Assembly: GCF_024449095.1 (NCBI RefSeq)
Contig: NZ_CP024628.1
Span: forward strand, 186,001 to 250,000
Length of the DNA: 64,000 nt
Source: Vibrio coralliilyticus
GTDB taxonomy: Bacteria > Pseudomonadota > Gammaproteobacteria > Enterobacterales > Vibrionaceae
Direction: 5' to 3'
Under the pieces are notes generated by a model. It was not told where the DNA came from and did not search any database. It worked only from the letters and a program-made list of their open reading frames with translations. A program made the translations under genes and the position numbers. Shown here one piece after another: positions 10,778 through 25,898 of this stretch (positions are counted from its first letter, which is position 1; each line of letters starts with the position of its first letter).

Positions 10778-10814
10778 TTCAGCCCTTTTATTGGGGCTGA
10801 ACCTTCTCTTTTTC
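10778..10814 (+). terminator. hairpin with T-rich tail between lipoprotein and flp
   Basis: TTCAGCCC (10778-10785) pairs with GGGCTGAA (10794-10801) around an 8-nt loop and is followed by CCTTCTCTTTTTC. It is a moderate rho-independent terminator in the only gap of the block, 57 bp before flp. It could be leaky, or it could serve as a 5' stabilising hairpin for the pilin message. Confidence 0.5.
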
Positions 10815-10826
10815 AGGAGTCTATTC

Positions 10827-11009
10827 ATGTTAAATAAAAATAAGCAACGTGGCGCAGCTGCGATTGAATACGCGATTTTGGCAGCGGCAATGTCTGTTGT
10901 TCTTCTTTCATTTGTTGGGGGTAGTGATGGCAAGTTAACCAAAGCCATTGTGGGTGCCTACGAGACAGTGATCGAATCACTGGAGCAAACTCAGGATTCT
11001 GGTAACTAA
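10827..11009 (+). CDS. flp: Flp-type class IVb pilin
   Basis: A 60-aa prepilin forming the fibre of the Tad pilus. The short basic leader MLNKNKQRG ends in the prepilin-peptidase site G|AAAIEYAILAA; mature residues Glu5 and Tyr6 are the Flp hallmark, followed by a hydrophobic helix. I chose this start because CAGGAG lies 8 bases before it; an upstream in-frame ATG at 10791 has no such site and would destroy the leader. The C terminus is polar. It is the first gene of the tad cluster, 24 bp ahead of cpaB. Confidence 0.93.
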   Translation: MLNKNKQRGAAAIEYAILAAAMSVVLLSFVGGSDGKLTKAIVGAYETVIESLEQTQDSGN

Positions 11010-11033
11010 ACCGACAAGGCTGAAGGAATAATC

Positions 11034-11873
11034 ATGACGGCTAAGCGATTGATGATGTTGTCTATCTTATTGTCTAGTGTAGGCATAGGGTTGCTGCTGC
11101 TTGGGCAAGATAACTCAGAACATCAGACGAAAGAGCAACCTGAACAAGTGTTCCAGCGAGTGCTGGTTTCGGGTCAGGATATCGGTGTCGGCGATGTCTA
11201 CACGCCCAATATGTTTCGTTGGCAATCTCTGAGTGAGGAGCAGCTTTCTGATTACGTCGACTACGTGACGGAAGATGAGATCACTTCCATTAACCTAGCG
11301 AGTGGTATTGCACATATTGCAATTAAACAAGGGCAAGTTATCGCTGTTGCTGACTTGATACCACCACAGGGTGGGGCTTCATTGGCCTTGAAAGTCAGAG
11401 CTGGGTATAGAGCAGTATCGGTGCCTGTTGATCAGGTGACTGCCAATTCTGGCTTTGTTCAACCGGGTGATAAAGTCGATATTTTGCTGCTGGGTTCTAA
11501 GGTCAGCGAGTTGAAGAAGTACGATAATGTGGTTGAAGGCCTTTACGTCAGCACTATTGCAACCAACGTTCGTATTCTTGCTTTCAATAATCTCTCATCA
11601 TCTGAAGGGTTCCAGGAAAAGCGTCATGACTACGGGGCGAAAATACCGGATAACAGCTCTGTATCACTTGAAGTGACGCCAGAGCAGGCAACACAAATTG
11701 TGCTTGCTAACCAGTTAGGCCGCTTGACTCTTTCATTGCGTGGTTCGGGTGAAACAGACTTTTCATTACCGCAAAGCCATACCATCACAACGACTCAGCT
11801 GAATCCGGAAAGCAAATTGATTGCTCCGGACGTAGACCTGATTCAGTTACGACCAAACAGCGACAAAAACTAA
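11034..11873 (+). CDS. cpaB: Tad pilus assembly protein CpaB/RcpC
   Basis: A 279-aa periplasmic protein anchored by an N-terminal membrane segment (about 5-24). An SAF-type domain (RVLVSGQDIGVGDVYTPNMFRW, about 44-66) is followed by the RcpC/CpaB region with GYRAVSVPVDQVTANSGFVQPGDKVDILL (about 124-152), the family's most conserved segment. It associates with the outer-membrane secretin and is needed for Flp secretion. AAGGAA precedes the start. The secretin gene follows after 18 bp. Confidence 0.92.
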   Translation: MTAKRLMMLSILLSSVGIGLLLLGQDNSEHQTKEQPEQVFQRVLVSGQDIGVGDVYTPNMFRWQSLSEEQLSDYVDYVTEDEITSINLASGIAHIAIKQGQVIAVADLIPPQGGASLALKVRAGYRAVSVPVDQVTANSGFVQPGDKVDILLLGSKVSELKKYDNVVEGLYVSTIATNVRILAFNNLSSSEGFQEKRHDYGAKIPDNSSVSLEVTPEQATQIVLANQLGRLTLSLRGSGETDFSLPQSHTITTTQLNPESKLIAPDVDLIQLRPNSDKN

Positions 11874-11891
11874 CAACTTCAGGACGAAACA

Positions 11892-13301
11892 ATGAACACA
11901 TTACTGCGCTGGTGGAGCTTGTTGCTGCTTCCCGGTTGGCTTTTTGCGCTTCCAACATGGGCAAATGCCCTCGAAGTAAACATAAATGAAGCAAAAATGA
12001 TTCGCCTGTCAGAAAAGGCAAAGTCGATTTTTATTTCCAATACACACATCGCGGACTACCAACCTATGACCAATACCAAAATCATGGTGTTTGGTATGCA
12101 GGCTGGCACTGCCACGATCACTGTTCTTAATGAGCAGGAACGAGTGATTTACAGCAACAAAATTCGTGTAGTCCACGATACACAAGAGTTGGATGAACTA
12201 ATCAAAGCTCAGTTCCCTGATGCTTCTGTGAATTCTGAGTCACTCGGTGGCAAGCTGTGGCTTAAAGGGTCTGTACCGACTCCGGCAATGGCGCACAGTA
12301 TCGTTAATGTGGCGAAAGGGTATTTGTCTCCAATCGTCGCTCCGCAAGAGAGCAATAACAATGACTCTTCAAAAAGCAGTAATTCATCGGAGAGTAACTT
12401 TGAAAACCAGCAAAACTCGAATGGCGACGAGCTGATTAACCAGTTGGTCGTGACGATGCCAACGCAAGTTAACATCCGTATTCGAATTGCAGAAGTCTCA
12501 CGCAATGTATCGAATAAACTCGGCATTAAGTGGGGCTCTCTGGTCACCAATGGCAGCACCGTTGAGAATACGGTCGGTAGCTTTCTTTACAATAAACCTT
12601 GGGATGTAAGCAGTTGGGGCAAACCTAACCTAAGTGCGCTGGTTGATGCGCTGGCTTCTACTGGTGATATGTCGATTCTGGCAGAGCCAAACCTGACCGC
12701 AATGTCTGGTGAAGAAGCCAATTTCCTAGTCGGTGGTGAAGTGCCAATTCCTCTGATTCAAGGAGACACTGCGACGGTTGAGTACAAGCCATTTGGTGTC
12801 AATCTAAACTTCAAACCTGTTGTGCTTGGCCCAGATAGAATCAGCTTAAAAGTTGAGCCTGAGGTGAGCAGTGTCTCTGTTGATAATCAAGCGGTTTTAA
12901 ATGGCAATGTGCTGCCTTCCTTCACGTCACGTAGAGCGTCAACAACGATTGAACTGGCTAGCGGGCAGAGCTTTGCACTTGGCGGTTTGCTGCAAAGCAG
13001 CGAAATTGAGCAACTGCAAAAACTGCCGGGTATGGGGGATATTCCAATTCTAGGTGGCCTTTTCCGTTCTAACGAGTATCAACGCCGTGAAACAGAACTG
13101 ATCATTATCGCGACCGCTTACCTTGTCGAGCCAACACGAAGCGATAACTTGCCGATTCCTACCGATGCTCTGATTCCACAAAGCGATCTGGAGAGACTGT
13201 TGGCGCTGCCTGACGAGGATTTCGTCGGAACCAGTGGCAAAGCAACTTACACCGACAACCGCAAGCCTCGTTTACTGGGCGACAACGGATTTTACTACTG
13301 A
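11892..13301 (+). CDS. cpaC: Tad outer-membrane secretin CpaC/RcpA
   Basis: A 469-aa secretin that makes the outer-membrane channel for the Flp pilus. A signal peptide ends near ALPTWANA (about 26). The N-terminal pilus-secretin domain (EVNINEAKMIRLSEKAKSI) is followed by a BON-like segment with LGGKLWLKGSV (about 117-127). A Ser/Asn-rich insert occupies about 154-181. The secretin core carries VGGEVPIP (about 282), VNLNFKP and the C-terminal LASGQSFALGGLLQ...PGMGDIPILGGLF (about 355-393). Length is typical. Confidence 0.94.
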   Translation: MNTLLRWWSLLLLPGWLFALPTWANALEVNINEAKMIRLSEKAKSIFISNTHIADYQPMTNTKIMVFGMQAGTATITVLNEQERVIYSNKIRVVHDTQELDELIKAQFPDASVNSESLGGKLWLKGSVPTPAMAHSIVNVAKGYLSPIVAPQESNNNDSSKSSNSSESNFENQQNSNGDELINQLVVTMPTQVNIRIRIAEVSRNVSNKLGIKWGSLVTNGSTVENTVGSFLYNKPWDVSSWGKPNLSALVDALASTGDMSILAEPNLTAMSGEEANFLVGGEVPIPLIQGDTATVEYKPFGVNLNFKPVVLGPDRISLKVEPEVSSVSVDNQAVLNGNVLPSFTSRRASTTIELASGQSFALGGLLQSSEIEQLQKLPGMGDIPILGGLFRSNEYQRRETELIIIATAYLVEPTRSDNLPIPTDALIPQSDLERLLALPDEDFVGTSGKATYTDNRKPRLLGDNGFYY

Positions 13302-13308
13302 GGTGCGC

Positions 13309-13935
13309 ATGAAATTACAATCGTTACTTTTGCCTGTTTTGCTCGTCCTGAGTGGCTGTGCTTCTGATCAAATAGCGCGTCAACCTGCCATTGATGTGGT
13401 CTCCGTAACCAATAAGCTTACTCTTGCGGTCGAAAAGAAATCGCTCACTCCGCAGCAGCAACAGGATATCCGATCCTTCATCGTTCAGCGTGGAAACCCC
13501 TATAGCCTAAGAGTGAAATTGGTGAGCTATTCGCCTAAAGGACAGTCTCAGGTTAAGCCTATTTCAAACCTGTTGCTCGGACAGGGGCTTGCAAAGCACC
13601 AGATTATGACGGAACGTGCGACCGGAACTCAATCTGGTGATGTGCAGGTCATCGTTGAGTCGTTTCGTGCCAAAGTGCCTGGGTGTGGTACCGATAAATC
13701 ACAGCCGGTCATCTTCAACCAATATAAAACCCATCAGGCATACGGCTGCAGTAATGCTGCGGCCTTAGCGCAAATGGTCGCTAACCCGAAGGATTTGGTT
13801 GTGGGTGAAAAGCTCGGTCCAACGAATGGGGCAAAAGCCGTCGCGGCCATTGATGCTTATGTTGCTCCAGCAAGCACCAATGAAAATAGTCAGGATAACG
13901 GCTCGGTGATTTCGATTAATACGGGGGGCAACTAA
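13309..13935 (+). CDS. cpaD: CpaD-family pilus assembly lipoprotein
   Basis: A 208-aa lipoprotein (signal peptide ending LSGC, Cys17) in the cpaD/rcpB position between secretin and TadZ. The segment FIVQRGNPYSLRVKLVSYSPKGQSQ and the Cys pair CG....YGCSNAAALAQMVANPKDL (about 125-155) are family landmarks; the NxAxMVANPxDL motif is typical of CpaD. The start at 13309 gives a proper lipoprotein signal with GAGGTG upstream; an in-frame codon at 13234 lies inside cpaC. It probably helps the secretin assemble. Confidence 0.85.
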   Translation: MKLQSLLLPVLLVLSGCASDQIARQPAIDVVSVTNKLTLAVEKKSLTPQQQQDIRSFIVQRGNPYSLRVKLVSYSPKGQSQVKPISNLLLGQGLAKHQIMTERATGTQSGDVQVIVESFRAKVPGCGTDKSQPVIFNQYKTHQAYGCSNAAALAQMVANPKDLVVGEKLGPTNGAKAVAAIDAYVAPASTNENSQDNGSVISINTGGN

Positions 13936-13937
13936 TA

Positions 13938-15101
13938 ATGAAAAATCAGAACCTTTCAGTATTGGTGGCAAGTTCTCCGGTGCTGGACAGCTACCATCTA
14001 AGCCTTGCATTTGCAGAGCAAGGGATCACTCAGCTTACCCAGGTTTCTTTAGAGCGTGAGCAGATCATTAAGCAGGCATTGATCCATAACCACAGCGTTA
14101 TTGCGCTAGATGTGATTGGTTTGTCAATCGAAGAGGCTCAAAGTCTTGTGAGTAACCTTGTTCATCGTACAGGCTGCAAGGTCATCGCAATTGGTGATGA
14201 TGAGAAAATCACTTATTACCGCAGTTTGCTATCGGCCGGAGCCCTCGAATATCTGGTGAACCCTATTGCACCGGATGCGTTCGCGTCTTTCGATTTTGGT
14301 CACCATCACAATGGAAACCAAAATGGGAAACGTATCTCTGTGGTGGGTACTAAAGGTGGCGTTGGCACTTCCACTGTCGTTGCGAATCTCGCACGAATGA
14401 TGAACAGTCGTGGCCAGTCGACGGCAGTGGCTGACCTTGATTTTGCCTCAGGGGATCTGGATTTACACTTCGATGTTCAAGGCAATACCGCTTTGGTTGA
14501 AATGTTGCAGTACCCAGAGCGCCTAGAGCCAGTAGTCTTTGAACGAAGTGGCATTGCGGTTCAGCCAGACTTAACCTTGTTCACGGGCTATTTACCTCTG
14601 GATACGGACCCGTTTTGGCCGGACAAAAACGCGTTAGAGCATTTCAGTAAATACTGCCTGGAGCACGCTGATAACCTTATCTTCGATATTCCCTCGTTCT
14701 CTCTGAGAGATCAGGTTGGTATGAGCGTGCTAAAAAGTGCAGATGTGCGCGTTATCGTCGTTGAACCAACTTTGTCGTCAATTCGCAATGCTGGGCAAAT
14801 CTTTAGCTTCCTTTCTGCTGGGGCAGAAGCTGGCCTCGCTAAAGAAAACCTTTTAGTCGTCAATCACACAAAATCGAACAAAGCCTCCTTGATTGCATTG
14901 AATGACGTTCACCGTGCACTGGGTGTTGATATTGATGTTTCAGTGCCTTTTGCACCGAATCACTTCTTAGCTAAAGAGTCATTGGGGCAGTCTGCCATCA
15001 AAGGGAATCGCAAGGTCAGCCAAGCGTTTTCTGACCTAGCGGATAAAGTTGAAGGCACACAGCAATCACGCTCATTCAGATTCTGGAAGCGAGGGGCGTA
15101 A
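13938..15101 (+). CDS. tadZ: TadZ/CpaE pilus localisation ATPase
   Basis: A 387-aa MinD/ParA-superfamily protein that places the Tad machinery in the cell. Residues 1-120 form an atypical receiver-like domain. A deviant Walker A, GTKGGVGTSTV, starts at Gly137 and includes the signature lysine; the switch region DLDFASGDLDLHFD (about 167-180) follows. It starts 2 bp after cpaD and its last base overlaps the tadA start codon, so it is translationally coupled. Confidence 0.92.
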   Translation: MKNQNLSVLVASSPVLDSYHLSLAFAEQGITQLTQVSLEREQIIKQALIHNHSVIALDVIGLSIEEAQSLVSNLVHRTGCKVIAIGDDEKITYYRSLLSAGALEYLVNPIAPDAFASFDFGHHHNGNQNGKRISVVGTKGGVGTSTVVANLARMMNSRGQSTAVADLDFASGDLDLHFDVQGNTALVEMLQYPERLEPVVFERSGIAVQPDLTLFTGYLPLDTDPFWPDKNALEHFSKYCLEHADNLIFDIPSFSLRDQVGMSVLKSADVRVIVVEPTLSSIRNAGQIFSFLSAGAEAGLAKENLLVVNHTKSNKASLIALNDVHRALGVDIDVSVPFAPNHFLAKESLGQSAIKGNRKVSQAFSDLADKVEGTQQSRSFRFWKRGA

Positions 15102-16438
15102 TGTTTAAGTCGACAAGAGCGAAAGAGCCATTAGCGGTAAGTCACGCACACAGTGCCGTAGCAGCGCAATCGGATCCTATTCGTGAACATTATCACCTGA
15201 TCCACTCTCAGGTGGTGAACGCGATTGAAGCCAGTGTTGTCATCAAGCTGAGTCCTCAGGAATTAGAAGCGAGGATTTTACTGCTGGTGACAGACGTGGT
15301 TTCGACTCATCAGCTACCGCTGGGCAATCGTGAAGTCGCGTTAGTGGTCAAACAGCTGGTAGATGAGCTATTAGGTTTGGGGCCGCTGCAACCCTTGATC
15401 GATGATCCCATGGTAAGTGACATCATGGTGAATGGCCCCAATGAGGTTTACATCGAGAAGTTGGGTAAATTGCAAAAGACGTCGGTCGAGTTTCGCAGTG
15501 AAGAGCAGTTGCTCAACTTAGCCCGTCGAATCGTCAGCAAAGTAGGCCGTCGAATTGATGAAAGCTCTCCACTGGTTGATGCGCGTTTAGAAGATGGCAG
15601 CAGGGTCAATGTCATGATTCCTCCGCTTGCATTGGATGGCACGTGTATTTCAATTCGTAAATTCAATCAGGAAAAACTGTCTCTCAATCAGATGGCGCAA
15701 AATGGCGCCATGTCAGACAGTATGGTGCGCTTACTGGACATCATTGTTCGTTGTCGGTTGAACGTCTTGATTGCGGGTGGAACCGGTGCAGGTAAAACGA
15801 CGCTGCTCAATGCGATGTCATTCAGTATTTCGCCTCATGAGCGGATTATCACCATTGAAGATGCCGCAGAGCTTCAGCTTCAACAGCCGCACGTGGTTCG
15901 GGCTGAAACCAGACCTGCAAACGCAGAAGGGCTCGCTGCTGTCAGTCAGCGAGAGCTGGTTAAGAACGCATTAAGGATGCGCCCTGATCGCATAATCCTT
16001 GGAGAGGTGCGTGGTGACGAAGCCTTTGAAATGATGCAGGCCATGAACACTGGCCACGAAGGTTCTTTGTCGACCTTACACGCGAACTCTTCGTTAGATG
16101 CATTGGTTCGAATTGAAAACATGCTGATGATGGCGCAATCCACCTTGCCATTGTTTGCATTGCGTCGACAAGTGGCTGATACGATTGATGTGGTGGTTCA
16201 GGTAGAGAGAATGCGTGATGGCAAGCGTCGTGTCGTCGCTATCACAGAGGTTATCGGCTTGGAAGGCGAGCAGTATGTCACCAACGACCTCTACCGCTTT
16301 GAGGTTCAGGGCGAAGATCATCAGGGTCAACTGCTGGGCAAGTACATGAGTGCCAGAAGCTTGCCTGCTTTTGCATCCAAAGCGCAATATTACCAACTTG
16401 ATAGCCAATTACGTTCGGCCATGGAGCTCGACTTATGA
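15101..16438 (+). CDS. tadA: Tad secretion ATPase TadA/CpaF
   Basis: A 445-aa hexameric ATPase that powers Flp pilus extension and probably retraction. MVSDIMVNGPNEVYIEK (about 104-120) and DESSPLVDARLEDGSRVNV (about 152-170) are the N-terminal landmarks. The Walker A GGTGAGKTT is at 226-234, the Asp-box ERIITIEDAAELQL near 248, Walker B MRPDRIILGEVRG near 294, and the His-box GHEGSLSTLHAN near 318. It overlaps tadZ by one base and tadB by four. Confidence 0.96.
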   Translation: MFKSTRAKEPLAVSHAHSAVAAQSDPIREHYHLIHSQVVNAIEASVVIKLSPQELEARILLLVTDVVSTHQLPLGNREVALVVKQLVDELLGLGPLQPLIDDPMVSDIMVNGPNEVYIEKLGKLQKTSVEFRSEEQLLNLARRIVSKVGRRIDESSPLVDARLEDGSRVNVMIPPLALDGTCISIRKFNQEKLSLNQMAQNGAMSDSMVRLLDIIVRCRLNVLIAGGTGAGKTTLLNAMSFSISPHERIITIEDAAELQLQQPHVVRAETRPANAEGLAAVSQRELVKNALRMRPDRIILGEVRGDEAFEMMQAMNTGHEGSLSTLHANSSLDALVRIENMLMMAQSTLPLFALRRQVADTIDVVVQVERMRDGKRRVVAITEVIGLEGEQYVTNDLYRFEVQGEDHQGQLLGKYMSARSLPAFASKAQYYQLDSQLRSAMELDL

Positions 16439-17340
16439 TCCTTGCTCTGGTCGTGATTTGGTGCCTGACCGTAGCGTTTTCCCTTCATTACTACAGCCAG
16501 CGTCGTAATGTAAAGCGACGCTTATCGAAGTACATCCCTGAGGCGGGTACGAGTCATTTGAGCTCGATTGTTAAATCGCGCCAGTCTGGCGGGAGAGTGC
16601 GCGAGTTCTTGTATCGTACTGACGCCTTGTTGCCACGTCAGGACAAACTACTGCTTGCTTTGTCAGCATTCGCTTTACCGCTTGGCACGATATTCTGGTT
16701 GCAAGCGCTGGCATGGTATTGGCAAACCGCTGTTGTTTTAGTGTGTTTTGGTGTCTTGTTCTGCACGCTGTTTGTTGTGCGTCGTAAAAAGCAAATTGAA
16801 GAGTTTGATACCAATATCGTTCAGGTGTTGGGGCTTGTTAGTCGTGCGGTGTCCGCCGGACTTTCTGTTCCTCAAGCCATCGAGCAAGTGGCGAACTCTC
16901 AAACAGGGTTATTAGGGCGGGAATTTGCGCTTATTACAGACAATTTGGCGTTAGGTATTTCACTGCGTCAAACACTTGATGAAGCCTGTACTCGCCTTCC
17001 TTACCGTACTTTTCGTTATTTTTCTGTCGCTCTGATTCTTAATCAGAGTAACGGTGGCCAGTTGAGGGAAATCCTCCACAATCTGAGCCGCACCATGCAT
17101 GACAATCGAGCCATGCTCAAGAAGGTAAAAAGTATGACCGCGGAACCGAGAATGACGGCAAAATTTCTTTCATTGCTGCCTTTGTTACTGGTGGCCGTTG
17201 TTGCATGGATCGATGTGTCATTGTTCGAGTTACTGGTCTACACCGAAAGCGGTCAGTCGATTTTGATTTATTGTGCAGCCAGTATTGCTTTTGGCGGCTT
17301 CACGCTCCATTCGCTGACTAAAAATAGGAAGTTCTCATGA
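16435..17340 (+). CDS. tadB: Tad inner-membrane platform protein TadB
   Basis: A 301-aa polytopic protein of the T2SS GspF/TadB superfamily. Two hydrophobic segments (about 77-113) precede a cytoplasmic domain with VQVLGLVSRAVSAGLSVPQAIEQVA and GGQLREILHNLS, and two more membrane segments close the protein. It pairs with TadC to form the platform on which TadA works. ATGA overlap with tadA. Confidence 0.92.
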   Translation: MILALVVIWCLTVAFSLHYYSQRRNVKRRLSKYIPEAGTSHLSSIVKSRQSGGRVREFLYRTDALLPRQDKLLLALSAFALPLGTIFWLQALAWYWQTAVVLVCFGVLFCTLFVVRRKKQIEEFDTNIVQVLGLVSRAVSAGLSVPQAIEQVANSQTGLLGREFALITDNLALGISLRQTLDEACTRLPYRTFRYFSVALILNQSNGGQLREILHNLSRTMHDNRAMLKKVKSMTAEPRMTAKFLSLLPLLLVAVVAWIDVSLFELLVYTESGQSILIYCAASIAFGGFTLHSLTKNRKFS

Positions 17341-18191
17341 TATCTATGATTGCGACCTTGCTGATTGTGGTGGGCGTCATTAGCTCCGTGGTTTGCTTTC
17401 AGCTTGCACGTCAGCAGGACGTCATCCATCGCCGCTTGAAACAGGTCAGTATTTCGACACTGCACACTCGCTCACTAGGCGAAAAATGGCGATGGAAGTC
17501 GAACCCTGCTCGTCAAAAACAATTGGCATTAATTGGCTTTAGCCAAAATCATGCAGAAACCCAGTTTGTGTTGATTCGCTTTGTCTTGATGCTTTGCGGC
17601 GCTGGCTTGTGGCATTTTAGCCGCTCTTTAGGTTGGTCAGCGGTGGATATTGCTCAGGATATAGCGGTGGCAATCGCATGCGGTATTGCGGTTGATCGAC
17701 TGCTCGAATGGCGTGTTAACCAGGTTCGTCAGGAAATCTCCAAAGTGGCACCCGATGCACTCGATCTTATGGTGGTCTGCGTCGCTTCTGGGCTGACACT
17801 GGAAAATACTTTTCGTGTTGTCGGTGAAGAAATGACGTCAGTTTCTCCGGCTTTAGCCCGAGAATGGGCACTGACCGCAACGGAAATGTCAGTGTTGGAT
17901 TCTCCGCAGCAAGCTTTGCTGAATCTGGATCAGAGATTGGAATTGCCAGATATCAACAACATGGTTGTGACCATGTCTCAAGCGCTTCAGTTTGGTACGC
18001 CTCTCTCGCAGGCATTGAGCCTGATTGCGTCTGATAGTCGTCAATACCAGTTGCTCGCTCTCGAAGAATGGGTAGGAAAAATTCCAGCCAAAATGTCTTT
18101 CCCACTTGTGGTGTTCATCATGCTTCCAGTCGTGGTCATGATTGTCGCCCCTGTTGTTCTCAGTCTGTTTAATACCTTGGACACACTATGA
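17337..18191 (+). CDS. tadC: Tad inner-membrane platform protein TadC
   Basis: A 284-aa partner of TadB from the same superfamily. An N-terminal membrane segment (about 2-22), a pair near 80-120, and a C-terminal pair with FPLVVFIMLPVVVMIVAPVV frame a cytoplasmic domain holding APDALDLMVVCVASGLTLENTFRVV. The domain repeats the GspF-type helical fold. Coupled to tadB and tadD by four-base overlaps. Confidence 0.92.
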   Translation: MISMIATLLIVVGVISSVVCFQLARQQDVIHRRLKQVSISTLHTRSLGEKWRWKSNPARQKQLALIGFSQNHAETQFVLIRFVLMLCGAGLWHFSRSLGWSAVDIAQDIAVAIACGIAVDRLLEWRVNQVRQEISKVAPDALDLMVVCVASGLTLENTFRVVGEEMTSVSPALAREWALTATEMSVLDSPQQALLNLDQRLELPDINNMVVTMSQALQFGTPLSQALSLIASDSRQYQLLALEEWVGKIPAKMSFPLVVFIMLPVVVMIVAPVVLSLFNTLDTL

Positions 18192-18922
18192 TTAAACCAT
18201 TCATTTCTGCCTGTTTTTGTCTATTGGTTCTTGGTTGCCAGTCTACGGACAATCAGGTTGAGCAATCCGATTTTCAACTAGCTGAAACCGCACTGACAAA
18301 CGGTCATGCGGATAATGCGCTTAACATCTATAAGCAGAAACTGGAGATGACTCCAGATGATCCCCAGCTTTTGTTTCTGGCGGGCAGTGCCAGTAATCAA
18401 GCCGCTCGTTACGATGAAGCGCTGCATTATCTCAAAAAGGGCAGTGCACTTAAGCCCTCCCCACAGTTTGATCGTGAATTAGGTCGCGCGCACTTAGCAT
18501 TAGGAAATGTTCGTTTAGCGACGGAATCACTGCGCAGAGCGGTGGAAGGAAACGAGAAAGACGAAGTGGCGCTAAACAGTCTTGGTGTGAGTTACTCACT
18601 GCAAAAAAACTATACGGATGCTCGTGATGCATTTCAGCAGGCGATTAACATTAGGCCGGACAGTTTAGAGTACCGAAACAACCTCGCGTTGAGCTGGATG
18701 CTAGATGGTCAGCCAGGTCAAAGTATTCGGATTCTTTACCCAATTTACCAACGCGGAGAAGCGACAACTAAGCTGCGGCTTAATCTAGCATTATCTTATG
18801 CGTTGCAAGGTGAGGTCGATGCTGCACGAACGATCGCGATGGGCGATCTGACCAAAGCGGAGTTAGAGAACAACTTAGCGTATTACCAGCATCTTGCTGA
18901 GCTGGGAGCTAGCGCATGGTGA
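18188..18922 (+). CDS. tadD: Tad TPR lipoprotein TadD
   Basis: A 244-aa lipoprotein (LVLGC, Cys17) with tetratricopeptide repeats from about 30 to 200, for example DEVALNSLGVSYSLQKNYTDARDAFQQAINIRPDS. TadD proteins resemble PilF/PilW pilotins and probably assist secretin insertion or stability in the outer membrane. It is coupled by overlaps with tadC and tadE. Confidence 0.9.
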   Translation: MIKPFISACFCLLVLGCQSTDNQVEQSDFQLAETALTNGHADNALNIYKQKLEMTPDDPQLLFLAGSASNQAARYDEALHYLKKGSALKPSPQFDRELGRAHLALGNVRLATESLRRAVEGNEKDEVALNSLGVSYSLQKNYTDARDAFQQAINIRPDSLEYRNNLALSWMLDGQPGQSIRILYPIYQRGEATTKLRLNLALSYALQGEVDAARTIAMGDLTKAELENNLAYYQHLAELGASAW

Positions 18923-19350
18923 TGAAGCGTCATTCTGGGAGCCAGACGATAGAGTTTGCAATGGTAATTGTTCCCCTGATGATTGTGCTACTGGCGGCAT
19001 TTGAATTTGCTCGCCTGATGTGGGTCACCATGATCTTTGAATCTGCCGTCAATGCTGCGGTTAGGGATGTAAGAACACTGCCACCTTCCACGACTTTGGA
19101 CAGTCAAATCCGCGATCGCATCGCCTCGTTTCCATTGCTCGATCTAGAGAAGATCGACATTGACCCTCCACGTTATAGCGATAGCGTTCAGTCTTTAGCA
19201 TTGGGGAGAACGACCACGTCTCTAACTGCGGTGATGGCCGAGTACCACATTCGATATCGCTTTACCTTTTTATTGGTGCCAGCCCTGTCTGAAACGTTTC
19301 CTTCAGTGGCGTCTTTAAGCCGAACCGTATTGGTGAGTCATGATGCGTAG
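18916..19350 (+). CDS. tadE: TadE-like minor pseudopilin
   Basis: A 144-aa pseudopilin with a prepilin-like N terminus: MVMKRHSG|SQTIEFAMVIVPLMIVLLA. The site after Gly8 puts Glu at mature position 5, so it should be processed by a prepilin peptidase. The C-terminal part is a small periplasmic domain. ATG codons at 18916 and 18922 both work; both overlap the tadD stop. Overlaps tadF by 11 bp. Confidence 0.88.
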   Translation: MVMKRHSGSQTIEFAMVIVPLMIVLLAAFEFARLMWVTMIFESAVNAAVRDVRTLPPSTTLDSQIRDRIASFPLLDLEKIDIDPPRYSDSVQSLALGRTTTSLTAVMAEYHIRYRFTFLLVPALSETFPSVASLSRTVLVSHDA

Positions 19351-19909
19351 TGTGTCAAAGCAAAATGGCGCAACCGTGATCGAGTTTCCGTTTGTTGTGC
19401 TCGGAATTCTAACCATCGTTTTGGGGCTGTTCGCAGTGTACAAGCTGCTCTACCTTCAAAGTCGTGTCGATAGTACGGCGTATTCGATGGCGAGTGCTGC
19501 TGCTAGAGCGTTAGTGCCACAAGGTAGCGCCAAAGCCTATGACGATGCGAGCGCTAATCAACTGTTGAGTGTTGCACAGCGTTCTTTACCCTCAGGCTTT
19601 GAAGCAGAACGTATCGGACTGGTGCTTGAAATTCGAACTGTGACTGCTGGACTCACAGAGCTCGTCACCCAAAAAGCAGGCAGTGACTGCGAGGTAGAAC
19701 AAACGATAGATGCTCTTTCTACACTCGCCCCAGTCAGCCGAAGTTCGATCGCCTCGTTAAGTGGTAAAACTGCGAGCCTGTATCAGGTAACGCTATGTGT
19801 CTCCGAGCCGTTGGAGTCGGATAGTGCCATTTTCAATTGGCTGCCGTTACCGCTTCCAACATCCATGCGCAGCCAAGCTGCCATGATAGGGAGGCGCTAC
19901 AGTGCTTAA
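19340..19909 (+). CDS. tadF: TadF-like minor pseudopilin
   Basis: A 189-aa pseudopilin beginning MMRSVSKQNG|ATVIEFPFVVLGIL, again with Glu at mature position 5 after a prepilin-peptidase site. Two cysteines (SDCEVEQ and VTLCVSE) could form a disulfide in the periplasmic domain. Together with TadE it probably primes pilus assembly. Its last bases overlap the start of tadG. Confidence 0.85.
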   Translation: MMRSVSKQNGATVIEFPFVVLGILTIVLGLFAVYKLLYLQSRVDSTAYSMASAAARALVPQGSAKAYDDASANQLLSVAQRSLPSGFEAERIGLVLEIRTVTAGLTELVTQKAGSDCEVEQTIDALSTLAPVSRSSIASLSGKTASLYQVTLCVSEPLESDSAIFNWLPLPLPTSMRSQAAMIGRRYSA

Positions 19910-21095
19910 GCAACACACAGGCTCCGTCTCCTTATCCTTCTTAGCTCTGCTGATTCCTTTGGTGGTGCTGTCTGCTGCGACCATCATGATTGGTTTTCAG
20001 ATACAACTGAGCAGCCGTGCGATGCAAGCCGTAGACGCGGCTTCCTTGGCGTGTGCATTTGCCGACTACTCCGATCCTAGCGTTAATCAGGTTTATTTGG
20101 AGTATTACCAGCCCAACGTAAAACTGGTGAAAAGCGAGATATACAGTGCTTCAGGCTGCGAGCTGAACATGGGGTATCAACTGACAGGGCTATTCTCATC
20201 ATTGAAATTTGCACAGGCCTCGTATTCAGCACAATCAGGTTCCGTGGAGCAAGCGCACGTCAATCAGTCGGCCAGTGTGACACCAACGGAAATGACTCTA
20301 GTGTTGGACATTTCCAGCTCCATGACAGGGTCAATCGACACATTAAAGAGCATCCTTACCCGAGCAATAGAGCGCATTGAACAAGACAATGTACAAATCG
20401 ATGGAAGGCGAGCAATTAGCATCTCTATCGTGCCTTTTTCTGATGGGGTATCTGCCCGCAATGCCGATTGGTTAGATGACAAAGGCGTCTTTTGTATCGA
20501 TGGGCTGACCAAAGAATCTGGCGGCTCTGTATTGGTGAATGAAACCGTTCAAAACCTAGACCGAATCCATTCCGAGAAGGCGGTTAATCATCGTGCACCG
20601 GACGAGTTTCTCGCAGATTGCAGTGCCTCTGCCACCCTTGTCCCGCTTACCGACAATATGAGCGAAGTGAAAACAGCAATTAATGCCCTGACGACGACAG
20701 GTGGCACTCGCTCGTATCAAGGGGTTATCTGGGGAGCTCGTCAACTGATTCCCAGATGGCGCCATGAATGGGGATACAACCCTTATTCGCTCTCACCTAA
20801 GCAAAAGCTGGTTCTGATGACTGACGGGGCTGACAGCGGTTATGTGTTGGATGATCTGATTGATGCTGGCCTTTGTGACCGTTTAGCCAATGAATTTGCT
20901 ATTGAGCTCAATTTTATTGGTTTCAATGTCCAAGACAGCCGCCTAGCTCAGTTTCAGAGCTGCATCAACGCCGCAAATACAGACGGAATCAAGGGGCAGG
21001 TTTTCTCTGCAACCAACACCGAGAAACTCGATGAATACTTTTCAAAGATATTGGAAGTTCAGTATGACACCACGCTTAACTTCGGACAGAAATAA
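19902..21095 (+). CDS. tadG: TadG-like protein with von Willebrand A domain
   Basis: A 397-aa protein with an N-terminal membrane segment (about 10-30; GSVSLSFLALLIPLVVL) and a von Willebrand A domain. MTLVLDISSSMTGS (about 131-144) is a complete DxSxS MIDAS metal site, with KLVLMTDGADSGY near 302. The N terminus looks pilin-like but lacks Glu5, so processing is doubtful. GTG start. TadG proteins are thought to anchor the pilus or act at its tip. It is the last recognisable Tad gene. Confidence 0.88.
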   Translation: MLKQHTGSVSLSFLALLIPLVVLSAATIMIGFQIQLSSRAMQAVDAASLACAFADYSDPSVNQVYLEYYQPNVKLVKSEIYSASGCELNMGYQLTGLFSSLKFAQASYSAQSGSVEQAHVNQSASVTPTEMTLVLDISSSMTGSIDTLKSILTRAIERIEQDNVQIDGRRAISISIVPFSDGVSARNADWLDDKGVFCIDGLTKESGGSVLVNETVQNLDRIHSEKAVNHRAPDEFLADCSASATLVPLTDNMSEVKTAINALTTTGGTRSYQGVIWGARQLIPRWRHEWGYNPYSLSPKQKLVLMTDGADSGYVLDDLIDAGLCDRLANEFAIELNFIGFNVQDSRLAQFQSCINAANTDGIKGQVFSATNTEKLDEYFSKILEVQYDTTLNFGQK

Positions 21096-21119
21096 AACAA
21101 CAAAATTATGGAGAAAATA

Positions 21120-21584
21120 ATGATTAAACAATTGGTTGTGCTATTCGCCTTATGTGCTTCCTTCTCAGCATCTGCGTTTAAAGAAGGAGACACCATCACA
21201 GATTCAGCGTCAACGGGACTCAAGCTGGATCAAAGCCAGCTAACGATAGTGGATTTCTTTGCGGAGTGGTGTGTTTCATGTCGCCATGAACTGCCTTTGG
21301 TTAATCAGCTCTACCGTGAGCTGGAAGGGACAGGCGTGACGGTTGTCGGCGTGGATGTCGATGAAGAGGTCGAAGTTGGCCTTGAGTTTCAAAAATCGTT
21401 AGGTTTGACCTTTCCTGTCGTCAACGATCCAAAGCAACAGTTGATCGCCGAGTTCAAGCCGATTGGTATGCCAGCGCTCTATTACATCTATCAGGGCCAA
21501 GTACTCAAAGTTCGGTTTGGCGCCATCAACGATATCCGTAACGTTATTCTCACTGATCTGGCTGATATGGGAGTGCAGCTATGA
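21120..21584 (+). CDS. periplasmic TlpA-like thioredoxin
   Basis: A 154-aa exported thiol-disulfide protein. The signal peptide is cleaved near ASA|F. The thioredoxin fold carries VDFFAEWCVSCRHELP with the catalytic pair Cys51/Cys54, and a cis-proline in GMPALYYI. The CVSC active site is the same as in the gamma domain of the DsbD encoded at the end of this block. I place the start at 21120 because GGAG lies 6 bases before it; an in-frame ATG at 21108 would precede the signal peptide. It starts 24 bp after tadG and overlaps the next gene by 4 bp. Confidence 0.85.
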   Translation: MIKQLVVLFALCASFSASAFKEGDTITDSASTGLKLDQSQLTIVDFFAEWCVSCRHELPLVNQLYRELEGTGVTVVGVDVDEEVEVGLEFQKSLGLTFPVVNDPKQQLIAEFKPIGMPALYYIYQGQVLKVRFGAINDIRNVILTDLADMGVQL

Positions 21585-22045
21585 AGCCAGTCGTTCTTGT
21601 ATTTGCTCTCTGCTTTCCGGCGCTGAGCGTTGCTGCACCCAAAGTGGATTTAAGTCAGTTAGGGAAAAAAACTTCCCAAGCTACGGAAACATCTGTCAGT
21701 GGTTCCAGCATTGAAGAAGAGGTGATTTCTGGTCAGGTCTACACCAGTGGCAGTTCTGAAATCGGTGCTCGTCGCAACGTTGAATTAGTCAAACCTCAGG
21801 CTAAGGATTTAACGCTGAATAAGCCAAAAGCCGTCGCAAATGAAAAGTCAGCACTCGCTTTTGTCGACGAAGCATTGGGTATCGAACCCGTTAAGCCGTG
21901 GGAAAAAGGCACGCTGGCTAAGAAAGAGATGAAACCCGGAGGGCCGGTGCCTGAGTTCGACTTATTTTCGGAGAAAGTCTTCTCATACAAGCAAGGTTCA
22001 GTGGGTGGCAGTGGCGTCGGTGGCGGCGGCTGTGGTTGTAACTAA
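21581..22045 (+). CDS. DUF4266-type secreted protein with C-terminal CxC tail
   Basis: A 154-aa exported protein with a signal peptide cleaved near SVAA. The middle is polar and probably disordered. The last 50 residues carry KPWEKGTLAKKEM and the tail GGSGVGGGGCGCN, which I recognise as DUF4266: a P-W-x-(K/R)-x-x-L-A motif and a C-terminal GGGCGCN. The two cysteines (151 and 153) are the only ones in the mature protein. Usual members are about 70-90 aa, so this one has a long N-terminal extension. The function is unknown; neighbouring TlpA, DUF3570, ApbE and DsbD genes suggest a redox or cofactor role. Confidence 0.75.
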   Translation: MKPVVLVFALCFPALSVAAPKVDLSQLGKKTSQATETSVSGSSIEEEVISGQVYTSGSSEIGARRNVELVKPQAKDLTLNKPKAVANEKSALAFVDEALGIEPVKPWEKGTLAKKEMKPGGPVPEFDLFSEKVFSYKQGSVGGSGVGGGGCGCN

Positions 22046-22064
22046 ATACTAAAAATAAATCAGA

Positions 22065-23288
22065 ATGAAAAAACTACCTTTAACGCTGCTGAGCGCAGCG
22101 GCAGTGGCGAATAGTGCGCTAGCAGAAGACCATATCTCTGTTCACTATCTAAATTACGAAGAGTACGACGATAAAGTGGAAGCAGGCGACAGCGTTGTTT
22201 CTATCGAAAAGAGTTTTGGTCTCGATTGGACCATCAATCTTGAATTGGGCTACGACACGGTTTCTGGTGCGTCACCGTCTTGGGGGCCAACTACGCCAAT
22301 TGGCAGTGCAGCGGATGCGGTCAACCGTGCGACGAAAACTCAACAGGCTCAAAATATGACGGATCAGGTGATCCGTGCTGGCTACGATCCCCACAGCAGT
22401 GGCTACAAAATTCAGAAATATGAGCTGGAAGATACCCGTAAATCGATCAATGGCAGCGCGACTTACCGAGACGAGTTGCGTAACGAGTGGACTTTCGGCG
22501 CTAACTTTTCCAAAGAAGAGGATTACCGCAGTATTGGCTTAAATGGTAAAGGGCTAATTTACGCCGACGCACAGAAAAACCGCTCATACAGTTTAGGGTT
22601 TTCTACCCTGTTTGATGAAACGATGACGTTTGGCAAATATCAAACTTCGACCAATCCACAATCTTGGGAAGACATCTTTACAGGGAATGTTGAGGCTGGG
22701 CTTTCACAAACCTTCTCGCCAAATTACTACATGGTCTTCACCGGCTATGCGGGTTATCGTTCTGGCTATCTTAGCAATCACTATTTGACGGTGTTGCGTG
22801 AGGTGGATATTGATGGCGATGGTTCGATCGGTACTGACGAAGTCTTTCTTGGTCAGGACTCACGCCCGGATACTCGTTTGTCAGGTGGCGTGAATATTCA
22901 GGCGTTCTGGTCAATGTCCGAAAATCTAGTGGTTCGTCCTCGTTACAAATGGTTTCAGGATGACTGGGGAGTGGCCTCTCATCAGCTTGGAGGTAAACTT
23001 TCTTGGACGGTCAATAACTGGTTAACTTTAGCGCCGGGTTATTTTTGGTATACCCAAAGTTCAGCTGATTTCTACCGTGACCCTAATGGCAGCGATCCTA
23101 CGTTTGCTTCATCGGGCTATGCGACCTCTGATTTACGTCTTGGTGATTTTACGGCCAATGCCTATGAATTAGGCGCAAGCTTTAAAGTACACAAGAAACT
23201 GCGCTTCAATCTGCTTGGTGCTTATTACGAGCAGTCCAATGGTTTTGAAGCGCAGTGGTGGGCAGTAGGGGCAACCTATGAGTTTTAA
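22065..23288 (+). CDS. DUF3570-type outer-membrane beta-barrel, candidate flavinylation target
   Basis: A 407-aa exported protein with signal peptide (cleavage near ALA|ED) and alternating hydrophobic/polar strands ending in Phe (GATYEF), as in outer-membrane barrels. I recognise DUF3570 from the N-terminal block YDTVSGASPSWGP. That block (Asp64, Ser67, Gly68, Ala69, Ser70) fits the D-x-x-[ST]-G-A-[ST] motif that ApbE enzymes modify with FMN. A perfect EF-hand-type loop, DIDGDGSIGTDE, lies at 248-259, probably in a surface loop binding calcium. It overlaps apbE by 11 bp. Flavinylation is inference. Confidence 0.8.
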   Translation: MKKLPLTLLSAAAVANSALAEDHISVHYLNYEEYDDKVEAGDSVVSIEKSFGLDWTINLELGYDTVSGASPSWGPTTPIGSAADAVNRATKTQQAQNMTDQVIRAGYDPHSSGYKIQKYELEDTRKSINGSATYRDELRNEWTFGANFSKEEDYRSIGLNGKGLIYADAQKNRSYSLGFSTLFDETMTFGKYQTSTNPQSWEDIFTGNVEAGLSQTFSPNYYMVFTGYAGYRSGYLSNHYLTVLREVDIDGDGSIGTDEVFLGQDSRPDTRLSGGVNIQAFWSMSENLVVRPRYKWFQDDWGVASHQLGGKLSWTVNNWLTLAPGYFWYTQSSADFYRDPNGSDPTFASSGYATSDLRLGDFTANAYELGASFKVHKKLRFNLLGAYYEQSNGFEAQWWAVGATYEF

Positions 23289-24159
23289 TCCGCCGTTTGT
23301 TCACCGACTTCAGGCGATGACGGTTCCTTGTGAAGTTCAGTTGTATCACTCAGAGAAAGCCGCAGATATCGCGGCTTTGATTGAGTCTAATACTCTGAGA
23401 TTAGAGCAGAAATTTAACTTTTATGATTCTCAATCTTGGCTCAATCAGCAAGTGAATCAACGTCAGTCATCATCTGTGGTTTTGGATGATGAAAGCTACG
23501 CTGTATTTGAAGTGTTGAAGCGTTTGGTTGACGGTACGAAAGGTGTTTTTGACCCAACGGTCGGTACTGTGAAGTCAATGATGGCCAGCACGCCTCAATT
23601 GGACAGAAATGCGGCTTATGAAGGTGCTAAAGCGTTTATGGGCGTTGATGCTTGGTCTCTATCAGATAAAACGCTCTCTATCCCTCACGCAGAGACTCAA
23701 TTTGACTTGGGTGGAGTGATTAAAGAGTTTGCGGTCGATCAGGCGGTGATGATCGCAGAGACATTTGGTGTTTCTTCTGCGCTGGTGAATTTTGGTGGAG
23801 ACATTCGAGCGCTTGGCACTAAGCCAGATGGTTCACCTTTCAATGTGGCGGTGCTTAATCCGAAGAATAAGCATGAGCCATTTTTTTCATTGCCACTGGC
23901 TGATGCCGCTTTGACGACATCCGCTCATTACGAGCGAAGCTTCCAATTTGGCGATGAGGAAAGCTCACACATATTGTCGCAACGTGGGACACATCCCCAA
24001 GTGCTCTCTGTCAGCGTCTTAGCTCCAACAACACTGGAAGCCGGCGCCCTCAGTACGGCATTGACATTAGAGCCGACTTTACCAGTCCCTGAACAAGTCG
24101 GCGTTGTATTTATCGATGATCAATTAGCTATTCATCAAGATACGGAGTTTGTAGCGTGA
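23278..24159 (+). CDS. apbE: ApbE-like FAD:protein FMN transferase, divergent
   Basis: A 293-aa member of the ApbE family, which transfers FMN from FAD to Ser/Thr of target proteins. Landmarks are FDPTVG (about 97), FDLGGVIKEFAVDQA (about 141-155), LVNFGGDIRALG (about 168-179) and TTSAHYERSF (about 220). Oddities: there is no signal peptide or lipobox, although most ApbE proteins work in the periplasm. The usual H-(I/L)-x-D-P-x-T-G segment reads HILSQRGTHP. The metal-binding A-D-x-x-x-T motif reads AGALST, with Gly for Asp. Its activity is therefore uncertain. It overlaps both neighbours. Confidence 0.82.
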   Translation: MSFNPPFVHRLQAMTVPCEVQLYHSEKAADIAALIESNTLRLEQKFNFYDSQSWLNQQVNQRQSSSVVLDDESYAVFEVLKRLVDGTKGVFDPTVGTVKSMMASTPQLDRNAAYEGAKAFMGVDAWSLSDKTLSIPHAETQFDLGGVIKEFAVDQAVMIAETFGVSSALVNFGGDIRALGTKPDGSPFNVAVLNPKNKHEPFFSLPLADAALTTSAHYERSFQFGDEESSHILSQRGTHPQVLSVSVLAPTTLEAGALSTALTLEPTLPVPEQVGVVFIDDQLAIHQDTEFVA

Positions 24160-25898
24160 TCAGAATTTTCATCCTGCCATTACTACTGTTTATCTCTGCC
24201 TTTACGTCTGCGCAGGAGCCTGACTTTTTGCCCGTCGAAGAGGCATTTCCTTATCAATGGTCGGTCAGTGAACAAGGTGTGCAGATCCATTTCGCGACTC
24301 AGCCTGAATATTATCTCTATAAAGGCCGATTTAAGTTTTCAGCAGATAGCGGCGTTGAATTGACTGACCCTCAATTTTCTTCACCGGGAAAACAGAAACA
24401 AGACAAGTACTTTGGCGAAGTCGTCGTTTTCGATAAGCCAGTAACTGTGCTGGTACCTTATGATGGCGAAGGTCAACTGAAGGTTCGTTATCAAGGCTGC
24501 TCAGAAAAAGGTCTGTGCTACTTACCTCAGACGATCAAACTCGACTTGCCCGCCAATACACTTAATGACAGCAGCTCCTCAATTTGGGATAAAGTTGGCG
24601 GTTTGGCGGAAGACACGGCGGGCCTGTCTGAGCTCTTAGGCAGTGCGTCCAAAACTCAGGCTCTCCTCATCTTTTTCCTACTTGGGTTAGGGCTGTCACT
24701 GACACCCTGTGTGTTGCCTATGGTGCCTATTTTGTCGAGCATCATTGGTGGTGACGCAAAAATGACAGGCCGGAAAGGTCTAGTTTTGTCGACGTCCTAT
24801 GTATTGGGTATGGCTTCCAGTTATGCGCTAACGGGGATCTTAGTCACAACCCTGGCTAAAGGCGTTAACCTGCAAGCGGCGATGCAGCAGCCTTGGCTGC
24901 TATCGATATTTGCGGTGGTGTTTGTCTTGCTTGCTTTAGCGATGTTTGGCTTCTACGAGCTGCAATTGCCGGCATCTATTCAACAGAAACTAAATGCAAG
25001 CTCAGACAAACTGGGCGGCGGTAAAGTGGCGAGTGTGTTGGTGATGGGCGCTGTGTCGGCGTTGGTGGTGTCACCTTGTGTGAGTGCGCCATTGGCTGGG
25101 GCGTTACTCTATGTTTCCACCACGCAAGATTGGGTCTTGGGCGGCGTCACTCTGTTTGTGATGGCTCTGGGTATGGGTGTGCCACTGATTCTGATTGGTA
25201 TGAGTGGCGGTAAATTGCTCCCCCAAAGCGGCCCTTGGATGATTGTTGTGAAACAACTGTTCGGTGTGTTGCTGCTGGCGGTCGCGATTGTGTTGTTGAG
25301 CCGTTTTATTCCAAGTTGGCTGACGATGCTCTTGTGGGCGGTACTTGCCATTGGAAGCGGTATTCATTTTGGCGCGCTGGATTCAGCGCAACCAGGTTGG
25401 GCGAGGACCCATAAACTGGCCGCATTTATGTCTTTGTTCTACGGATTGATCTTATTTGTCGGCATGTTGACAGGCTCAAACGATCCTCTTAAGCCACTTA
25501 ATGTTGCGCAGGTTTCATCAGACAAACTATCCACAGTTTTACCATTTGAGAAAGTCAGCTCTGTTGAAGTCTTGGATCAACAATTAGTACTCGCGAAGCA
25601 GCAAGGTAAACCGGTACTGATTGACCTTTATGCCGACTGGTGTGTCTCGTGTAAGGTCATTGAGAAAGAAGTGTTTGGTCATGAATCTGTACAAAAGCAG
25701 TTTGCTGACTGGAATACGATTAAGTTTGATGTCACAGAGAGTACCCCTGAGCAGATGGCGTGGCTGGCAGAGCGCAATGTGTTTGGTCCACCGGCGGTAT
25801 TTTTCTTTGATACCAAAGGAGCGGAAATTGCTCAGCAGAGAATTGTTGGGGCCACAGGGCTTGAGCATTTTCAATCTGTGATGACCCAATTGCAGTAA
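24156..25898 (+). CDS. dsbD: thiol:disulfide interchange protein DsbD
   Basis: A 580-aa inner-membrane electron carrier that passes reducing power from cytoplasmic thioredoxin to periplasmic thiol proteins. After the signal peptide, the alpha domain holds Cys115 and Cys121 (GCSEKGLCYLP). The eight-helix beta domain holds Cys185 (SLTPCVLPMVPIL) and Cys308 (VVSPCVSAPLAGALLY). The C-terminal thioredoxin domain holds WCVSC (Cys496/Cys499). All six redox cysteines are present. GTG start overlapping the apbE stop. Its place at the end of the TlpA-DUF4266-DUF3570-ApbE set suggests a dedicated electron supply. Confidence 0.94.
   Translation: MIRIFILPLLLFISAFTSAQEPDFLPVEEAFPYQWSVSEQGVQIHFATQPEYYLYKGRFKFSADSGVELTDPQFSSPGKQKQDKYFGEVVVFDKPVTVLVPYDGEGQLKVRYQGCSEKGLCYLPQTIKLDLPANTLNDSSSSIWDKVGGLAEDTAGLSELLGSASKTQALLIFFLLGLGLSLTPCVLPMVPILSSIIGGDAKMTGRKGLVLSTSYVLGMASSYALTGILVTTLAKGVNLQAAMQQPWLLSIFAVVFVLLALAMFGFYELQLPASIQQKLNASSDKLGGGKVASVLVMGAVSALVVSPCVSAPLAGALLYVSTTQDWVLGGVTLFVMALGMGVPLILIGMSGGKLLPQSGPWMIVVKQLFGVLLLAVAIVLLSRFIPSWLTMLLWAVLAIGSGIHFGALDSAQPGWARTHKLAAFMSLFYGLILFVGMLTGSNDPLKPLNVAQVSSDKLSTVLPFEKVSSVEVLDQQLVLAKQQGKPVLIDLYADWCVSCKVIEKEVFGHESVQKQFADWNTIKFDVTESTPEQMAWLAERNVFGPPAVFFFDTKGAEIAQQRIVGATGLEHFQSVMTQLQ

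Follow-up and report, generated by a model that had tools for sequence, protein, structure and literature searches.

A DUF3570 protein of Chlorobium is flavinylated at two sites by its cognate ApbE, and the same study describes 285 gene clusters with DsbD, of which 227 hold DUF3570, 221 DUF4266, and 183 a thioredoxin-like protein; a hybrid thioredoxin/flavin system and part of an electron route from DsbD to flavin are put forward there (Meheust et al. 2021, PMC8238504). We analyzed a 64,000-nucleotide stretch of Vibrio coralliilyticus (assembly GCF_024449095.1, contig NZ_CP024628.1, positions 186,001 to 250,000; hereafter the window) in which these same families are encoded together, directly behind the last gene of a tight adherence (Tad) pilus locus. 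With a probability of roughly 0.6, we interpret the five genes as a redox cassette built around a flavin porin, similar in type to those of Meheust et al., in a Tad-pilus-linked variant in which flavin would be attached in the cytoplasm before export, electrons would be supplied by thiols, and the whole would be set up jointly with the pilus. The core idea, i.e., flavinylated DUF3570 and clusters of this type, is already published; as far as our searches show, the Tad link and the class of ApbE are the new parts.

All five proteins scored above the Pfam cut-offs of their families, namely AhpC-TSA/Thioredoxin, DUF4266 (67.7 bits), DUF3570 (267.7 bits), ApbE (154.7 bits), and DsbD_N plus DsbD_TM plus a thioredoxin domain, and the window DsbD reached 585.5 bits with the NCBIfam DsbD model (cut-off 330). 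The initial annotation, made from the sequence alone, had described five tightly packed genes after tadG, a CVSC motif in the thioredoxin, a GGGGCGCN tail in DUF4266, DTVSGAS at residues 64–70 of the barrel, and a complete DsbD; the open reading frames (ORFs), family matches, and translations bear out each of these, with six DsbD cysteines lying within DsbD motifs. Its remark that no function was established is out of date for DUF3570, whose flavinylation has been reported (PMC8238504). From tadG through DsbD, the intergenic gaps are 24, −4, 19, −11, and −4 bp, counted with a thioredoxin start at 21120; an alternative in-frame ATG lies 12 bp 5′ of it. With ApbE, DUF3570, a thioredoxin-like protein, DUF4266, and DsbD all together, the gene set belongs to the DsbD/DUF3570 flavinylation clusters, sharing with them the five families, the barrel motif, and DsbD as proposed electron source, and differing from them in its Tad linkage, one SGAS instead of two, a long unlipidated DUF4266, an EF-hand-like loop in the barrel, and an ApbE without DPRTGxP (PMC8238504).

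The window DUF3570 protein holds a single [ST]GA[ST] motif, at residues 67–70. DTVSGAS is not a chance occurrence: across 41 aligned sequences (query included) D64, A69, and S70 never vary, and G68, A69, and S70 are conserved in 90, 96, and 96% of 101 sequences. Since loci L004–L070 had been found with a search pattern containing VSGASP, the association of the motif with ApbE was evaluated only on the 31 loci found by Pfam search (L100–L130). There, in line with the conservation of SGAS beside apbE on which the initial annotation depended, [ST]GA[ST] occurred anywhere in the barrel ORF in 20/21 loci with a linked ApbE vs 4/10 without (Fisher p = 0.0017), and at the aligned site in 16/21 vs 3/10. 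Despite a linked ApbE, L104, L115, L120, L121, and L124 deviate at the aligned site; four of them carry [ST]GA[ST] at another place in the ORF. A single clade holds nine of the ten loci lacking ApbE (L118, L119, L123, and L125–L130), with DxxS[SGN]AS or a similar sequence at the aligned site. The model gives 16 strands, and the protein ends on a C-terminal phenylalanine (Phe407) and starts with a hydrophobic N-terminus (1.96), so that DUF3570 is predicted to be a 16-strand outer-membrane barrel. The flavin site is predicted to lie at the outer mouth, a position that assumes that both barrel ends are periplasmic. Overall, the covalent flavoprotein barrel put forward in the initial annotation is well supported by the published homologue (PMC8238504), the kept motif, and the predicted fold.

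Some barrels varied in other ways. In L120, L121, and L124 the first motif is now SGGT and a second, SGAS, follows a few residues on, a possible shift of the flavin site. The DUF3570 match at L110:4890-7628 falls within an open frame of 912 codons, double what is usual. In L160 and L174, two loci read further for the ApbE-less clade, a large HZS_alpha-like protein that contains two CxxCH motifs is encoded nearby.

The window ApbE belongs to family PF02424 by its Pfam score and its ApbE fold. It carries neither the signal peptide nor the lipobox of canonical periplasmic ApbE, and the canonical Asp metal ligand (AD...T) is absent, its place being taken by Gly256. We compared 81 DUF3570-linked ApbEs with 42 others from 29 DUF3570-bearing genomes (47 enzymes before removal of three repeats of linked enzymes and two repeat copies). 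All 81 linked enzymes have a Glu after the Lys of GGxxK and a Gly replacing the Asp of the ADxxxT segment (Glu150 and Gly256 in the window); this two-residue signature occurs in 0/42 others, which have Gly at the first position and Asp (40) or Glu (2) at the second. A hydrophobic N-terminus was found in 0/81 linked ApbEs vs 36/42 others, N-termini of <12 residues being scored as non-hydrophobic in both groups, and many linked enzymes have just 9–20 residues before the domain, counted from the earliest possible start. The initial annotation left the site of ApbE action unstated; because the linked enzymes are devoid of a signal peptide or hydrophobic N-terminus, an ApbE with a rearranged metal site probably attaches flavin while the barrel is still in the cytoplasm. 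The published barrel had acquired its flavin in E. coli and was purified under denaturing conditions (PMC8238504), so that the simplest reading is modification of the unfolded precursor before Sec, and a minimal flavinylation target of seven residues (PMC12052999) fits such a substrate. A cytoplasmic ApbE of Klebsiella likewise has no signal peptide; its target is a soluble fumarate reductase, whereas here it would be an exported barrel (PMC12052999).

Within this altered enzyme the catalytic His is kept (window His231 aligns with V. cholerae His257). The lost Asp aligns with an Asp of T. pallidum Ftp and, by its spacing to the Thr four residues on, would be equivalent to E. coli D280, which binds metal at site 1 along with T284 and the T166 main-chain oxygen (PMC4767422). 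The window enzyme thus differs from the T. pallidum Ftp and E. coli Ftp/ApbE structures by Gly256 at the Asp site and by the extra Glu150. The latter directly follows the position that corresponds to E. coli E169, a metal 2 ligand equated with T. pallidum K165 (PMC4767422), and lies four residues beyond that of T166, a placement that makes a metal ligand swap, with the Asp lost and Glu150 gained, a reasonable interpretation. Alternatively, the replaced ligand and the loss of DPRTGxP may mean that ApbE is degenerate in this clade and its barrel no longer flavinylated. We consider this very improbable, as the Asp-to-Gly change and the Glu occur together in 81/81 linked ApbEs, including Chlorobi relatives of the working C. 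luteolum pair (the C. luteolum enzyme itself lying outside the set), and as both the catalytic His and the DxxSGAS target are fixed in the clade, albeit in loci found with a motif-holding pattern. Other ApbEs were also seen. Six genomes of the nine-locus clade described above encode an ApbE without the linked signature at a distance of 6–18 kb, and a hydrophobic N-terminus is present in four of these enzymes. L170, L171, L172, and L173 carry another short type (264–280 aa, no signal peptide) with the usual Gly and Asp at the signature positions.

That the cassette follows tadG, as the initial annotation stated, is correct and incomplete: the cassette is the tail of a complete Tad locus, and the run of genes extends from flp (10791) to DsbD (25898) with every gap ≤24 bp. 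Like described Tad/Flp pilus loci, this one holds the whole gene set, i.e., flp, a secretin, an ATPase, two TadB/C-like membrane proteins, and TadE/F/G, with a ParA-like TadZ, a TadD with TPR, and a VWA-bearing TadG by Pfam. Across 99 DUF3570 loci, TadE and TadG lie upstream of DUF3570 in 31 (the window, the 28 loci L004–L031, and L111 and L114, which are a repeat of L018 and a close relative of L011, respectively), and they were not detected in the fetched stretch of the other 68, where some contigs end near the cassette and where the stretch of one Vibrio locus (L034) ends before the upstream genes. Pfam verified the Tad genes in the three most distant Tad-linked loci (L029–L031), and ten upstream proteins tested in six non-Tad loci matched no Tad family; one weak TPR/TadD-like match came from the non-Tad locus L126. 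In a tree of 85 of the 99 barrels (14 near-duplicates, fragments, or fused ORFs omitted), the 25 Tad-linked rows formed a single group (SH-aLRT 99), i.e., one change.

Among 150 Vibrionaceae genomes, DUF3570 was found in 12 and TadF in 80. TadF lies 2.2–2.6 kb from the barrel in 10 of the 12; of the remaining two, G417 has another type of DUF3570 away from TadF, and G534 is too fragmented to tell. The cassette is hence shown beside TadF for 10 of the 80 TadF-bearing genomes. Nine of these ten, the window genome included, also have an Lcl_C match ~11.5 kb upstream (not seen in G525), compared to 0/10 control genomes with Tad and without DUF3570 in which Lcl_C was sought within 20 kb of TadF (p = 1e-4; several controls are in many contigs). 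Three of the nine matches exceed the family cut-off, the whole window protein scoring 66.2, and the frames span 1632–1910 codons in all but one (G501, 896 codons). Three sister genomes in which no Tad genes were detected have Lcl_C ORFs immediately 5′ of the thioredoxin gene. Since Lcl_C proteins are common in the genomes examined (23/31), the evidence here is one of position; the domain is described as named after a glycosaminoglycan-binding Legionella adhesin. Cassette, Tad genes, and Lcl_C gene are thus co-located, and the Tad locus is probably part of the story.

Such an arrangement might also be expected of a periplasmic thiol-repair branch for the Tad machine, in which DsbD and the thioredoxin would correct disulfides of TadF, TadG, or the giant lipoprotein and the flavin barrel would be a side matter. 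In favor of this, tadG is the gene immediately before the cassette, TadG has 6 cysteines and the Lcl_C protein 11, and TadG has <6 cysteines in 3/29 cassette-linked vs 11/26 unlinked loci, a weak difference confounded by the single linked clade. However, the median is 6 in both groups, on which ground cysteine enrichment of cassette-linked Tad proteins was rejected, and the unseparated TadE/TadF set displayed no cysteine excess in linked loci (as these two profiles are merged, TadG is the single clean comparison). The same gene set, often with DsbD, moreover occurs in other lineages without detected Tad genes, and ApbE and the kept motif would go unexplained, making a repair branch improbable.

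The Tad-linked clade further differs in DUF4266. In a comparison of 98 DUF4266 ORFs, a lipobox was found in 0/31 Tad-linked proteins vs 51/67 elsewhere, by a crude pattern that misses some true lipoproteins, and the core starts at residue 105–436 in Tad-linked loci (core pattern unmatched in L013 and L015) vs mostly 20–40 elsewhere, the window protein being about twice the usual length. The EF-hand-like calcium-loop pattern of the barrel was likewise confined to the Tad-type set (30/32 rows vs 0/67 others); this loop and the long DUF4266 devoid of a lipobox both set the Tad-linked clade apart. A thiol-to-flavin flow is suggested by the order of the genes, by the cysteines, and by the near-invariance of the DUF4266 tail, and a route from DsbD through the thioredoxin and the CxC tail to flavin appears plausible. 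Porin-cytochrome conduits such as MtrCAB resemble the cassette in having a barrel through which electrons could cross the outer membrane; unlike them, the cassette shows no sign of multihaem cytochromes, as none of its five proteins contains a CxxCH haem motif. A surface flavin could also serve iron assimilation by reducing ferric iron for uptake, and the ferrous iron transporter VIT1 does occur in 25 of the published clusters (PMC8238504). This seems quite unlikely for the window, given that no iron transporter is found among the classified neighbours (Tad genes upstream, aldehyde dehydrogenase and chemoreceptor downstream; other flanks were not searched).

For a cassette supplying electrons to a surface flavin, we hypothesize the following sequence of events. 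The derived ApbE would transfer flavin mononucleotide (FMN) from flavin adenine dinucleotide, in the cytoplasm, to Ser70 of the unfolded DUF3570 precursor, a transfer published for a homologue and here placed in the cytoplasm by the missing signal peptide. Sec would export the flavinylated precursor, which is predicted to form the 16-strand barrel with flavin at the outer mouth. Electrons of cytoplasmic thioredoxin would pass through DsbD to the CVSC thioredoxin in the periplasm and on to the CGC tail of DUF4266, and this tail may reach the barrel and give electrons to, or take them from, the flavin. As its genes accompany those for a dedicated Tad pilus and for the giant lipoprotein with Lcl_C domains, the module could provide a redox face where the cell attaches to surfaces.

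Several points weigh against this interpretation. The support for these particular proteins comes from sequence and prediction, and the orientation of the barrel follows from strand parity in a model rather than from measured topology. Tad linkage reflects the shared ancestry of one clade, not repeated gain. The DPRTGxP segment is lost throughout this ApbE clade, and the enzyme could be weak or dead. The nine DUF3570 loci with no ApbE in the fetched stretch retain thioredoxin and DUF4266 while their motif has mostly decayed, so that the thiol part may have a flavin-free job. Finally, two further DsbD_N genes are present in the genome, and the cassette DsbD therefore need not be the sole donor. 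A still stronger proposal is that the Tad locus builds its own haem-free electron outlet, in which periplasmic thiols would pass electrons to a covalent flavin at the porin's outer mouth, attached in the cytoplasm by an ApbE with a Glu elsewhere in the site in place of its metal-binding Asp, and in which pilus attachment and surface redox exchange would form a single machine; this is in our view doubtful.

Among the papers listed by our searches, none links Tad with ApbE or DUF3570, subscription papers and some preprints being outside the scope of the search, and PMC8238504 is the one paper in which DUF3570 and DUF4266 were found. The terms pilus, pili, tight adherence, TadG, and barrel are absent from the main text of PMC8238504 (figures and supplements outside scope), and DUF3570 and barrels go unmentioned in the available text of a 2024 paper of the same group (PMC11334425) and of a preprint (PMC10979944). 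A search for Tad pili and extracellular electron transfer returned, among others, PMC12545173, and one for coralliilyticus and Tad returned, among others, PMC7374056; in the text available, Tad appears just in the reference list of the former and in a reference of the latter. In Shewanella, a link between DsbD and extracellular disulfide reduction was attributed to cytochrome maturation, and the available text draws no connection to the present cassette (PMC10986466).

Table 1 Features of the Tad pilus locus and the redox cassette in the window.
Feature	Position	Strand	Evidence or detail
Giant probable lipoprotein, 1623 aa, Lcl_C domains, just 5′ of flp	5898..10769	+	Pfam Lcl_C E 4e-18, 66.2 bits, two stretches; lipobox-like LFGC
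Tad genes flp, rcpC, secretin, CpaD-like, tadZ-like, tadA, tadB, tadC, tadD-like, tadE, tadF, tadG	10791..21095	+	Pfam; gaps ≤24 bp
TlpA/ResA-like periplasmic thioredoxin, WCVSC	21108..21584 (start 21108 or 21120)	+	Pfam, NCBIfam (NCBIfam below cut-offs), hydrophobic N-terminus
DUF4266, 154 aa	21581..22045	+	Signal peptide, ~85-residue extension, DUF4266 core, GGGGCGCN tail, no lipobox; Pfam, 98-ORF comparison
DUF3570, predicted 16-strand outer-membrane barrel	22065..23288	+	Signal peptide ~1–20
Flavinylation motif D64-T-V-S-G-A-S70	22254..22274	+	End of strand 3/start of outer loop 2
EF-hand-like loop DIDGDGSIGTDE, residues 248–259	22806..22841	+	Outer loop following strand 9
ApbE-family FMN transferase, no signal peptide, Glu150/Gly256 signature	23278..24159	+	
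DsbD: alpha, transmembrane, and gamma domains, six Cys	24156..25898	+	

For flp, the prepilin sequence makes an ATG at ~10827 a more likely start than 10791. A terminator-like hairpin lies at 10778–10801, between the Lcl_C gene and flp; 17 such sites in the window compared to 16.2 expected by chance make this weak evidence. Downstream, the cassette is bordered by genes for an aldehyde dehydrogenase and a chemoreceptor. The window is part of contig C2 in a genome of three contigs, which has its third DsbD_N gene at G000:C2:1138396-1138716, in a 723-codon frame. Vibrio sp. RE88 has the same DUF3570 barrel as the window, and the identity to a V. coralliilyticus barrel is 99%.

The Glu/Gly signature would mark ApbEs that target DUF3570 and help in their annotation. 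If the proposed cassette is real, flavinylation can precede export, and an unfolded chain bearing a large cofactor goes through both Sec and the machinery for barrel insertion. Electrons could then reach the cell surface from periplasmic thiols with no need for haem, and a redox surface would accompany some Tad pili.

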